Below are positions 1 to 28,310 of a stretch of 33,968 nucleotides of DNA, piece after piece. This DNA is from Candidatus Zhuqueibacterota bacterium (GTDB taxonomy: Bacteria > Zhuqueibacterota > Zhuqueibacteria > Oceanimicrobiales > Oceanimicrobiaceae): contig JAJDAG010000058.1 in the NCBI GenBank assembly GCA_029262005.1, positions 1 to 33,968 on the forward strand, read 5' to 3'. The notes beneath the pieces were generated by a model. It saw only the letters and a program-made list of their open reading frames with translations. It had not been told where the DNA came from and made no database searches. The position numbers and the translations under genes were made by a program. Position 1 is the first letter of the stretch. Every line of letters begins with the position of its first letter.

Positions 1-784
1 GGTCGGTATAAGTATTGCGAGTTTTAAATACATTAATTGGGATAGGCTCTGTACTTACCTGTATAAGCTGTGCCTTAGTATTACGGAGAAATTCGGTTTT
101 ATCAAACAAATCTCCTTTATAGTCAAACGCAATAAAATTTGTTTGAAACTTAGAGGCCTTGCGCAATTCAGTGAGGAAGTGCATCATAAAATAAGTTTTG
201 CCACTGCCCGGGCGACCAACAACGCCAATGTAATTGTTGTTATGTTCATCGATCTTATTGAAATTGATAATATGCGGTTCGTTATTCTCTTTGTTAACAC
301 CAACCCTTATAGAAACAACACTTTCGTAACCGGCGATTTCAGGTGTTTCTTCATCTGCAATATCCACATTCGCTGATAATTCATTTAAACCTTTTCTCGC
401 TATGGCAACCAAATACTCAAATCCGCTGAATCGTTCAGTCTCCTTGTCTAACAGTTCTAGGCCATGTTCAATATGGTTTTCCAATAATTCTTCGTATTCA
501 GCATCAGTTAGTTTGCGTTTGTAGTATTGTTGCAGTAACGCACGCAAAAGAGAAGCATCTCCTTGTTCCAAAGTAGGTACCTCTATTTCGAAAGGCCTTG
601 ATCCAGCTTTGTTTGCATTTGTACTTTCGTGCGTTCCCCCTATTTGGGAAGGAGCTGTCTGCAATGACCTGGAAAGTGCAATCCTTAATGTCCAAAGAAA
701 TTCTCGTTTTTCCAATCGGATCCGATTTCTTACACGGTACATCTGATCTGTTGCATAAGGTGCAAGTTTGATCTTTCTAGCCAT
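1..784 (-). CDS. dndE: DndE-like protein fused to a HerA/FtsK-like P-loop ATPase (partial, C-terminus beyond window)
   Basis: An uninterrupted reading frame of 261 codons starts at ATG 784 and runs off the left edge, so the C-terminus is missing. Its start lies 2 nt after the dndD stop, which implies translational coupling. Residues 1-120 are basic and helical (MARKIKLAPY..., then REFLWTLRIALSRSLQ) and fit DndE in size and position; known DndE proteins are about 110-130 residues and complete dndBCDE operons. After a linker, the frame continues into a nucleotide-binding domain: GRPGSGKT (residues 190-197) is a Walker A, followed by FMMHFLTELRK and FIAFDYKGDLFD, the pattern of HerA/FtsK/VirB4-type ATPases. 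The role of DndE in sulfur incorporation or DNA binding is established for the family; the ATPase fusion is seen directly. Whether the first part is a true DndE domain is inferred from context and length. Confidence is high for coding and for the P-loop, moderate for the DndE name. Confidence 0.75.
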   Translation of the reverse strand, partial: MARKIKLAPYATDQMYRVRNRIRLEKREFLWTLRIALSRSLQTAPSQIGGTHESTNANKAGSRPFEIEVPTLEQGDASLLRALLQQYYKRKLTDAEYEELLENHIEHGLELLDKETERFSGFEYLVAIARKGLNELSANVDIADEETPEIAGYESVVSIRVGVNKENNEPHIINFNKIDEHNNNYIGVVGRPGSGKTYFMMHFLTELRKASKFQTNFIAFDYKGDLFDKTEFLRNTKAQLIQVSTEPIPINVFKTRNTYTD

Positions 785-2840: not shown

Positions 2841-4244
2841 CTACCCTTTTTTCACGAATCCTTCTATTTTCAAACGCATATCATCGAAAATATTATTTCT
2901 CCGGAGAAATGAGAGGTGCTCCTTTTCAAGTTGCATTAACTCTTGAATATGATCAGGATTGACTTCAAGTTCAGTGCAAACCTCATCAAGAATTTGGAAC
3001 TCTTCACTACGGTGTTGCGAGGTTTTGTCTTCGAGGATCATTTCAGTACCTCCCTTAGATTTGCTATATATTTCTGCGACAGAATACCTAAAGTTACCAT
3101 CATAATTCCATTGGTATTGAATCGCCATAAGCTCTTGCTGAGAAATGAATTGATGCCCAACTTTGTTTTCAACTTTTAGGAGACGTTCGAGAATCTCTTT
3201 TCTCGTTTCCATTGTAAAAGGGCCTATTCCAGGCTGATTATTGCGCCGCCACTTAGATCGTTTTGTCTCATCATCTCTAATGACATAGAGCCAATCCCGA
3301 AACTCTATGAGGGGTTGCATCCATTCTTCGCCATTTGTGATCATGTGGCCCATTGATCGGTCTTTATCTACTACAGTACATACCCAACAGCCAAAACGCG
3401 AATTACCACAACTCGCAGTCGTATTGTCTATGACTAATGGGCATTCCATAATGTCCGAAGCGCTGCGATATAAATCTAAAAGTTGTTGATTATCTGCACC
3501 CCAAGGGTTTTCTGTATTTATTAGATATGTCCAAACCTCTTTATTGGACATATTGGCAATGGGGGCAAAAACAAAGGCGTTTGCTAACTTATGTTGTCTT
3601 AAACGAACTCCCGGAATCTCATACTGCTGCATTGACGCAGAGCGGTTTGAAGATTCTGCTTTTCTTGTTCCTAACACTATGATGGCTTGACCATGCTGGT
3701 TAACCGTACTTAAAATATAATCATTTGTTGGATTAATTTTCATTCTTTCAGTACACCAACGAAACCAGCGATTTGGCGAAGGATAACCTTTACCAATCAG
3801 ATTTAGCCAAAAAGTATCTTCTAACCTTGGAGTTGATTTGCAAACATTAAAGAGTGAAGGATTATGCGCAAACAACTCATTTCTACCGATTAATTCAATT
3901 TTTGTTAATTGTTCATCTAAAAATTTAACAACATTGGGATTTTCGACTAATGTATCATTAGATAATACATGGACTTCTTTAGTAAGAAGATTGGGTGGTA
4001 TTTCTTTTAAGGCATAAAAAATCAATTGCAATAAAGCTGTACTATCCTTACCACCCGAAAAACCAATTACCCAAGGTGTGGAATCTTCTAGGTATTGTTC
4101 CTTTATTTCATCAACGACTTCTTTTGCTGTATTTGATAAAGTATTTAAAAATATTTCAACGTTGATAGCTTCAGTGTCTATAATAGCACTCCTTGTGACT
4201 GTATATTCTACAGCATCAGTGAATTGAAATTGTTGGAATGGCAA
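2841..4244 (-). CDS. dndC: DndC, PAPS-reductase-like sulfurtransferase of DNA phosphorothioation
   Basis: DndC carries an ATP pyrophosphatase loop and an Fe-S cluster, and activates the DNA backbone for replacement of a non-bridging oxygen by sulfur received from a cysteine desulfurase. The PP-loop SGGKDST is at residues 63-69. Cysteines likely to bind the cluster are C268, C279, C286 and C289 (CGNSRFGCWVCTVV), with another in RWFRWCTERMK (C164). All are typical of the family. The open frame begins at TTG 4244, which has no good ribosome binding site. An AAGGAG lies just before residues 21-22 (ATT ATA, around 4184), where shorter family members begin, so the real start may be a rare ATT/ATA codon there. 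It is first in the visible dnd operon; dndB, usually upstream, is missing and an insertion sequence lies 80 bp away. Confidence 0.95.
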   Translation of the reverse strand: MPFQQFQFTDAVEYTVTRSAIIDTEAINVEIFLNTLSNTAKEVVDEIKEQYLEDSTPWVIGFSGGKDSTALLQLIFYALKEIPPNLLTKEVHVLSNDTLVENPNVVKFLDEQLTKIELIGRNELFAHNPSLFNVCKSTPRLEDTFWLNLIGKGYPSPNRWFRWCTERMKINPTNDYILSTVNQHGQAIIVLGTRKAESSNRSASMQQYEIPGVRLRQHKLANAFVFAPIANMSNKEVWTYLINTENPWGADNQQLLDLYRSASDIMECPLVIDNTTASCGNSRFGCWVCTVVDKDRSMGHMITNGEEWMQPLIEFRDWLYVIRDDETKRSKWRRNNQPGIGPFTMETRKEILERLLKVENKVGHQFISQQELMAIQYQWNYDGNFRYSVAEIYSKSKGGTEMILEDKTSQHRSEEFQILDEVCTELEVNPDHIQELMQLEKEHLSFLRRNNIFDDMRLKIEGFVKKG

Positions 4245-4378: not shown

Positions 4379-5778
4379 ATGGCATGGAAAAAGCGAACAG
4401 AAAAACGCCACTCTAACCAAGGAGCCACAAAAACGATGAGATTTTCCGAGACCCTATCGAGAGTCGCGGAAATGATTTTTTATCTTTTCATACCAGGTAT
4501 TTTCATCATTTTGGATTACGAACAAAGTCGGTATTTCGCCAAGCTCAAGGTTATCTTTGTGGCCTGATGCAAGCTCAGAAGGCCAACATGGAACGCATGG
4601 TTGAAGAAGTTCCAGAAACAGATTGGGATTCAATGCAGAACTTTATATCTGACTCTCCGTGGCAACACCAGCCTATACTCGAGCAAATTAAATGAACTAT
4701 TGGGCGCTCATTCTGGCAATTGTCTTTTGGTCGATGAATCCTATTTTGGCAAAAAAGGCAAAAAGTCCGTTGGGGTTGCCCGCCAATGGAACGGTCGATT
4801 AGGTAAAGTTGATAACTGTCAAGTTGGCGTCTTTATCGCCCTTGGCCGCTACTCACACATAAACTTGACTGATTTTAGACTCTTTTTGCCCAAAGAGTGG
4901 ACAAGCGATAAACCACGTTGTCGTCGGGCTGGCATTCCCGAACAGTTCATTGAAACGCGAAGCAAGATTGATTTAGCTCTTGAAATGGTCGCGAGCGCAA
5001 AAGCTCAAGGTTTTAATTTTCAATGGGTTGAGGCCGACGGATTTTATGGCAGAGACAGCCATTTCCGTCATACACTTAGCGCCATGAACTTGACTTACAT
5101 GGTCGATATACCCAAGGACACGACCCTTTACTTTGAAGACCCCAAACCTTTTATTCCGCCTAGATCTTCAAAAAAGGCCGAACACCGACGCGCCTAAAAG
5201 CATCTACTGAAGGCATGCGCCTGGACAAATGGTTGGCGCCACAACCCGACTCAGCCTTCCAGAAAATCATTGTCCTGAGTGCGGCAAAAGGACCTTTGAC
5301 AGCCCAATTCTCACATAAAATCATTTGGCTTTGGGACGGAAAATCACCTGAAGCTGATAAAGTACATCTCATCATACGAAAAGATACAGGTGAATCCCAA
5401 ACCACCCTTAAATATTCTGTCAGCAATGCAGTCTGTGAAACGCCCATCGAACGCCTTGCCTATATGCAATGTCAACGGTATTGGATCGAAAGAGCATTCC
5501 AAGACAGTAAAAGTCATGTCGGTATGGCCGAGTATCAGGTTCGGGGATGGAGAGCCTGGCACCATCATATGACAATGGTTGCACTGGCCACCCTGTTCAT
5601 GCTCAATACCAAAATCAATCACCAACAGGACTATGAACTTTTGTCCGCAGCTGACATCAAACACCTATTGTCGAAATTCTTGCCCCAAAGACAAATCTCA
5701 AAACAAAATGTCATCGAAGTCATGAGAGAAAGACATCGTAAAAGACAAAAAGACATAGACTTATATAGAAAAATCTAA
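4379..5778 (+). pseudogene. IS701-like transposase, frameshifted
   Basis: The transposase can be read only by changing frame. An N-terminal part with FRQAQGYLCGLMQAQKANME and NFISDSPWQHQPILEQIK is open from 4417 to a TGA at 4693-4695. The next part, from about 4690 to 5197 in the +1 frame, carries NELLGAHSGNCLLVDESYFG, the first catalytic Asp, and EADGFYG, the second. The last part, to 5778, is back in the first frame and has IERAFQDSKSHVGM with the catalytic Glu. The join near 5170-5176 is A AAA AAG, a canonical -1 slippery heptamer; reading back one base gives SSKKGRTPTRLKAST, as expected for the family. A short start frame from ATG 4379 to 4567 may supply the extreme N-terminus, with one more shift. 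With two or three frame changes the gene is most likely inactive, although all three catalytic residues survive. Confidence 0.8.
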
Positions 5779-27188: not shown

Positions 27189-28310
27189 CTAAAAGGCAAA
27201 TTGAGCGCCGAAGATGAACAAATCTGTCTGTTCTTTCAGCGTGTGGTTTAAAAGCGCAGCATCAAGGGCTTCGGGCTTGGCGAAACGATTTCCATCGACA
27301 TGGTGATACGATAGCTTCAAGACAAAATAGGAATTAAACCAGTAGTTGATGCCAATGACATTCTCTCGGTGTTTAAGCAAGGATGGCGCCTCGCGAGTAT
27401 CTACTTCGGGCAGCACAGTGTTTAGCCGCTCCAGGCGAGCAGCAATTTGCCAATTCCTCGAAAATTTGCGCGCCATTTCAAAATAAAAGGCATTTAGCTT
27501 CAGTTCGTCGCCATCTATCTGCCGGTAATACTCGCTGCGCACCGACCACACATTAGAAAGATATTCTCCATGAACGCCATAAACGCTATGTCTCTCCGCA
27601 GTGTTTTCCTCCTTGCCGGAATAACCGGAAATGCCGAGTTTCAACCCGTCAATCGGTACATCAATTGTCACTCTACCGCCAAGGATATCTTTAATGTTGT
27701 GTTCTTCTCCAAAGCCTTCTTCATTTTCATTCAATTCCCCAAAATAGCGGATAGGATTTTCGCTATCCAAGTTCAATTCCCCAACGTAAATATCATAACC
27801 CAAACCCCAATCATTGACGGTTTGCAAGAAGCCGGTAAAACCCGCGCCCTTGTATGCTTCTGCGCTGATCCCAGTCTCATTATAAACTGAGCTCGGAAGA
27901 GCGAAAAATGGTCGCAGAATTCCAACATCAAAAATCTCCCCATAAATTCCAAAAGGGTGTTTCACCTGGCCAATACGCAGCCTTAAAATATCTGAAAATC
28001 GCCACTCAGCAAAAGCGTAATCGACAGCCGCCTCTGTTCCATCATCATCTGCATTCCAGTAAAGTTGCGCCTTGACTTGGAGATTTTCTTTGGGTTTAGC
28101 GGTTACGGCGAGGGCAAAATCGAGATAGTCGTATTCCCCACCCTCCACGCCGAAAAGATACTTGTTGCTGTCCGTGCGGCCATAGCCCCAGGAACCAAAG
28201 CCATGAATGTACACTTTTTCAAGTTGCTGGGCAAAACCATCACTTATCGCAAAAAACAAAATCAATACTGACAGACTTCTGGTGAGCGCGCTCATGCTAA
28301 GATGCCTCAT
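27189..28310 (-). CDS. Porin-like outer-membrane protein (OprP/OprO-like)
   Basis: A 373-residue exported protein. The signal peptide is LTRSLSVLILFFAISDGFAQ. The mature part is a 16-strand-like barrel with many aromatic-ended strands (WGYGRTDSNKYLFGVEGG, YDYLDFALAVTAKPKENL, LRIGQVKHPFGIYGEIF) and it ends in a terminal aromatic residue, GAQFAF. It resembles phosphate-selective OprP/OprO porins (Porin_O_P family), which form trimers; the substrate cannot be told from sequence alone. It starts at 28310, overlapping the end of the upstream truncated gene (ATGA), and the small binding-protein gene follows 15 nt on. Confidence 0.82.
   Translation of the reverse strand: MRHLSMSALTRSLSVLILFFAISDGFAQQLEKVYIHGFGSWGYGRTDSNKYLFGVEGGEYDYLDFALAVTAKPKENLQVKAQLYWNADDDGTEAAVDYAFAEWRFSDILRLRIGQVKHPFGIYGEIFDVGILRPFFALPSSVYNETGISAEAYKGAGFTGFLQTVNDWGLGYDIYVGELNLDSENPIRYFGELNENEEGFGEEHNIKDILGGRVTIDVPIDGLKLGISGYSGKEENTAERHSVYGVHGEYLSNVWSVRSEYYRQIDGDELKLNAFYFEMARKFSRNWQIAARLERLNTVLPEVDTREAPSLLKHRENVIGINYWFNSYFVLKLSYHHVDGNRFAKPEALDAALLNHTLKEQTDLFIFGAQFAF

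Follow-up and report, generated by a model that had tools for sequence, protein, structure and literature searches.

A DndE-HerA/FtsK fusion gene beside dndC and dndD in a genome of Candidatus Zhuqueibacterota

In a subset of Dnd systems, one clade of HerA/FtsK ATPases is fused to DndE and lies beside a DndD-type ATPase (Rakesh, Aravind, Krishnan, NAR 2024, PMC10853773). The view in the literature is that DndE, together with DndD, searches DNA for its target sites and brings in DndC. A gene for such a fusion is present at the left edge of the 33,968-nucleotide stretch of DNA analyzed here (the window), and a first-pass annotation had put it forward as a possible new Dnd layout. The same fusion is explicitly described in the 2024 study, so the architecture is already known and the window is a further example of it. 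In the open-access literature, we found no paper reporting an experimental test of such a fusion.

The fusion gene and its continuation on a second contig

The window is the entire contig C159 (33,968 bases), part of a draft genome of 5.77 Mb, and its left edge falls inside the fusion gene. Three genes are arranged in a row at this end, all on the minus strand, in the order dndC, dndD and dndE-herA. The first (positions 2841-4244) codes for a PP-loop sulfurtransferase of 467 aa (TIGR03183, 421 bits; cut-off 290), and the second (787-2823) for a coiled-coil ABC ATPase of 678 aa that is without a CxC zinc hook (TIGR03185, 376 bits; cut-off 246). The 5' half of the fusion gene (1-784) begins with an ATG at position 784, 2 bases from the stop of dndD, and is open to the contig edge over 261 codons (261 aa). 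It specifies a divergent DndE-like domain (residues 4-116; 437-775, minus strand), recognized by PF08870, by profile matches to DndE structures and by fold, followed by the Walker A motif of a HerA/FtsK ATPase domain, GRPGSGKT (residues 190-197; 194-217, minus strand), and the frame after dndD does run past the size of a DndE into a Walker A, as had been read from the sequence. The window thus holds dndC, dndD and a DndE domain, the gene set that identifies a Dnd phosphorothioation (PT) modification system, and the fusion gene is paired with a DndD-type ABC ATPase, as expected of a DndE gene. Beside dndC, at 4601-5778, are two adjoining plus-strand ORFs that by eye resemble halves of one transposase, and the dnd operon may have been shortened by them at its 5' end.

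Extension to the left, as the first-pass annotation had advised, recovered the remainder of the gene in frame on another contig, C68. The last 46 bases of C68, which ends at base 27364, match window bases 1-46 in the right orientation with 3 mismatches, suggesting strain variation or contig-end error. On C68 the frame runs on for 266 codons to a stop and so supplies the missing ~250 codons, for a joined protein of about 512 aa. Identity to a homologue encoded by a single ORF in Candidatus Kapaibacterium (scaffold L027) is 58% over residues 181-246, 57% over 247-260, 50% over 261-320 and 64% over 321-400, and since it is even before, across and after the junction, the join between C159 and C68 is sound. 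Searches of the same genome found no second copy of either half. An assembly artefact that fused dndE to an unrelated ATPase gene might be suspected from a window that stops within the gene and from the disagreement of the two contig ends at 3 of 46 bases, but the DndE domain and the Walker A both lie inside the window itself, and full-length, single-ORF homologues occur in a finished plasmid and on twelve other contigs; the chance of such an artefact is negligible. Kapaibacterium and Methylorubrum extorquens AM1 carry full-length fusions, and an assembly join as the source of the fusion is refuted by relatives in the finished plasmid and in a 260-kb scaffold.

Domains of the joined protein

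For the window protein alone, residues 4-116 match PF08870 with an E-value of 9e-5 and 23.1 bits (Pfam cut-off 25), rising to 25.4 bits when the neighbours in the frame are included, while the score against the DndE equivalog TIGR03184 is 21 bits, far below its cut-off of 71.85, so this is not a canonical stand-alone DndE. Taken from the window sequence by itself, the DndE call is suggestive only. It becomes firm, at the level of sequence profiles, once the relatives are included: PF08870 matches in 12 of 13 full-length relatives (43 bits for the Kapaibacterium homologue), and the first PDB matches of a profile built from 12 N-terminal regions are all solved DndE structures, namely 7x4e (1.2e-8), 5wtu (2e-3) and 4lrv (0.014). 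In an AlphaFold2 model of the window domain (pLDDT 76), the best two fold matches in the PDB are also DndE, 5wtu (probability 0.98, E 0.13) and 4lrv (probability 0.90, E 0.33), although these E-values are weak. The model of the Kapaibacterium protein has a strand at residues 4-6 and helices at 9-21 and 31-42, then a linker, a strand at 59-61 and helices at 62-81 and 87-109, and a helix at 114-128. This is the DndE fold of two strand-helix-helix (RHH) units with a linker and a C-terminal helix. The profile and structure searches proposed earlier for this region therefore bear out its assignment, weakly for PF08870 in the window, strongly through the relatives, and with DndE structures at the top. 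Chains of the F-plasmid relaxosome appear further down the fold list at low probability; DndE has been compared with TraY of the F plasmid (PMC10853773).

The remainder of the joined protein carries the Walker A (GRPGSGKT, 190), a Walker B (VIVIDEAH, 401), the arginine of an RSKG motif (428) and Q439. In the segment IREIRSKGASVMLLSQ are an arginine immediately preceding strand 4 and the glutamine of sensor 1, which serve to define the HerA/FtsK clade (PMC10853773). The Walker A, the Asp-Glu of the Walker B, the RSKG arginine and the sensor-1 glutamine are invariant or nearly so in the 13 relatives, so that the Walker B, arginine finger and sensor for which a check had been suggested are all present and conserved. 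PADLOC DndH profiles match residues 137-448 (E 8.9e-31). With a full-length family profile, the matches were to the DndH C-domain (7es4, 8.4e-31) and to HerA (4d2i, 2.6e-12), and a fold search placed 7es4 at the top (E 2.4e-20), then HerA 4d2i, VirB4 and TrwB. No nuclease domain was found in the fusion protein by domain search. The description of the gene as a DndE-like protein fused to a HerA/FtsK-like ATPase holds, both domains being in one ORF here and in the relatives.

Related operons and neighbouring genes

Scans with a single query sequence gave no matches in genome or viral contigs, and relatives were found when a two-sequence alignment was used as the query; 13 complete fusions were gathered as the comparison set. 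The Kapaibacterium homologue, of 510 aa, is 52% identical over residues 1-510, a Chloroflexi contig carries a fragment with 73% identity, and further fusions were found in Bacteroidota, Rhodovarius and Sulfuritalea. On the finished megaplasmid of M. extorquens AM1, dndC, dndD and the fusion lie in a row, and the fusion is one ORF of 514 aa that scores above the cut-offs of both PF08870 (31.8 bits; cut-off 25) and DUF87 (27.7 bits; cut-off 23.2). Plasmid matches to the ATPase part were mostly long or otherwise different HerA-type proteins that are not beside dndC or dndD, and were set aside. A contig from the human gut (MT835906.1; L021, 6283-14313) shows apparent type III Mod/Res-like genes, then genes for an ABC ATPase and for a HerA-family protein of 526 aa related to the fusion; mobilisation-like genes adjoin.

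A gene for a DndD-type ATPase lies upstream of, and is co-directional with, all 13 fusions, usually with an overlap of a few bases, and a C-x-C motif is absent from every one of the 13 ATPases compared. In Kapaibacterium, two genes lie between dndD and the fusion, one of which is dndB (PF14072, 113 bits); between dndD and dndB, at 8228-8722 of L027, is an ORF of 164 aa that matches GIY-YIG weakly (E 0.018). The pairwise identities of DndD and of the fusion are strongly correlated (r 0.98, 78 pairs, Mantel p 0.0002), indicating that the two evolve as a unit. The window has dndC, and so do at least five of the related loci (L013, L027, L030, L043 and L045). Several Bacteroidota operons with a DndD-type ATPase and DndE-HerA are without dndC (L031, 5454-7649; L032, 4592-7519; L033, 299-2710; L034, 5524-7728; L035, 5554-7518), and encode upstream, instead, a large protein bearing HA, sigma-70 region 4 or RNA polymerase alpha-CTD-like domains, which implies that sulfur is not the only process in which the motor pair can work. 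One relative (L045, 264-20312; IMGVR_UViG_3300003965_000020) belongs to a temperate phage or prophage that has genes for an integrase, TerS, TerL and a portal. The module of this phage, closely related to that of AM1, sits between the integrase and the terminase/portal genes, and the phage carries a C5-methylase (cytosine), dndC, dndD, DndE-HerA and two ParB-N6/N4 methylases; no nuclease was recognized among the neighbours examined.

A survey of 82 genomes from the window's phylum gave a DndE match in this one alone, a distribution that fits horizontal acquisition. Profile searches found neither DndH nor DndB in it, and no other DndE, DndB or DndH match that would indicate a second dnd locus. 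Directly downstream of the fusion on C68 (L003, 10743-14538) are four co-directional, tightly spaced genes, coding in order for a GHKL ATPase (PF13589, E 1.8e-12), a ParB-like protein (PF02195, 5.9e-15) and products of 231 and 206 aa. The 231-aa product has no convincing matches, and the 206-aa product matches PD-(D/E)xK nucleases weakly (PD_DExK, E 0.003), with no relative found in the PDB or Pfam. As for the dndFGH or other restriction genes sought further to the left, no DndH was found in the genome, and what the extension brought is this ORF with its weak nuclease match. None of the other collected fusions has a GHKL-ParB cassette beside it, and GHKL homologues elsewhere are in other settings, so a conserved link between fusion and cassette was rejected; the cassette may be a partner in restriction or an independent set of defence genes.

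Proposed role and comparison with known systems

HerA/FtsK proteins are hexameric DNA pumps. In the present case both domains lie in one ORF, the ATPase motifs are intact, the pairing with DndD is constant, the two proteins diverge congruently, and the operon has the full dndC, dndD and dndE/herA complement. We infer from these sequence features ring formation, translocation and a use in modification rather than restriction. The gene product would belong, as a subunit with two domains, to a Dnd system that modifies DNA by phosphorothioation. Its N-terminal double ribbon-helix-helix DndE domain would bind both the target DNA and the ABC ATPase DndD, and its C-terminal HerA/FtsK domain would form a ring and, using ATP, translocate duplex DNA. 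By virtue of the covalent fusion, each DndE of the complex would bring a motor domain, and such a motor-driven scanner would carry DNA past DndC for the insertion of sulfur, probably supplied by a housekeeping cysteine desulfurase.

The first-pass annotation had supposed that the fusion joins the modification and restriction arms. One part of this stands, as DndE and a DndH-like ATPase are in one protein; the restriction arm finds no support in a fusion with no nuclease domain, a genome in which no DndH or DndB was found, and a phage relative that sits among methylases. For these reasons we favour a DNA translocase of the scanning and modification complex over a merged restriction arm; of a phage, one would expect that it carries genes to modify its own DNA and not to restrict it. 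We put the probability of the whole scanner model at about 0.6. Weighing against it, several Bacteroidota loci pair the ABC ATPase and fusion without dndC, so that PT is not the sole context, HerA domains elsewhere are mostly tied to restriction or defence nucleases, and a weak nuclease-like ORF lies downstream in the operon. A stronger form, in which HerA is the obligate motor of modification, phosphorothioation is processive while DNA is pumped, and temperate phages use the module to mark their own DNA, is offered tentatively and is more doubtful.

Were the HerA domain instead a restriction arm replacing DndH, it would pull unmodified invader DNA to a nearby nuclease such as the 206-aa protein, which would suit an ATPase domain closest to DndH and the close, co-directional spacing of the downstream genes, one with its weak PD_DExK match. 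However, the GHKL-ParB cassette is particular to this locus among the collected fusions, the downstream genes of the closest relatives are unrelated, and the nuclease call is weak and lacks a PDB or Pfam relative, making this reading unlikely. The idea of 'HerA/FtsK capture', proposed for HerA domains in PMC10853773, would have the HerA domain serve the DNA handling of phages or plasmids (packaging or segregation), with DndE doing no more than target it, as an interception module without modification. It accords with the Bacteroidota loci that are without dndC, but the operon includes dndC in the window and in no fewer than five relatives, and dndB occurs in Kapaibacterium as well; we consider it improbable.

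Since the motor and the DNA-targeting subunit are united in one protein, mutation of the Walker A alone would test whether DNA translocation is required for phosphorothioation, which is harder to learn cleanly where DndE and DndH are encoded apart. Among known families, the ATPase domain is most similar to that of DndH/DptH of the DndFGH system, but DndH is a multidomain protein of about 1,700 aa with helicase-like, TRD, methylase-like and nuclease (REase) domains, and the 512-aa fusion, consisting of DndE and ATPase only, is not of that type. The N-terminal 116 residues match canonical DndE (4lrv, 5wtu, 7x4e) in sequence profile and fold; canonical DndE, however, is a stand-alone protein of about 110 aa, whereas the window domain is fused and falls below the TIGR03184 equivalog cut-off. 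PbeABCD and the CxC ABC-ATPase systems likewise have an ABC ATPase and DndE pair, but the zinc hook that marks them is missing from the window DndD, which has no C-x-C, and no HKD-nuclease/SF2-helicase gene of the PbeABCD kind was noticed beside the fusion. With the clade-3 fusions of PMC10853773 the locus shares DndE and HerA/FtsK in one polypeptide, an adjoining DndD-type ABC ATPase and a setting in Dnd PT-modification operons. No architectural difference from them was found, the likeness being one of architecture and context, and to this described fusion the present locus and its relatives add a host lineage and several complete operons.
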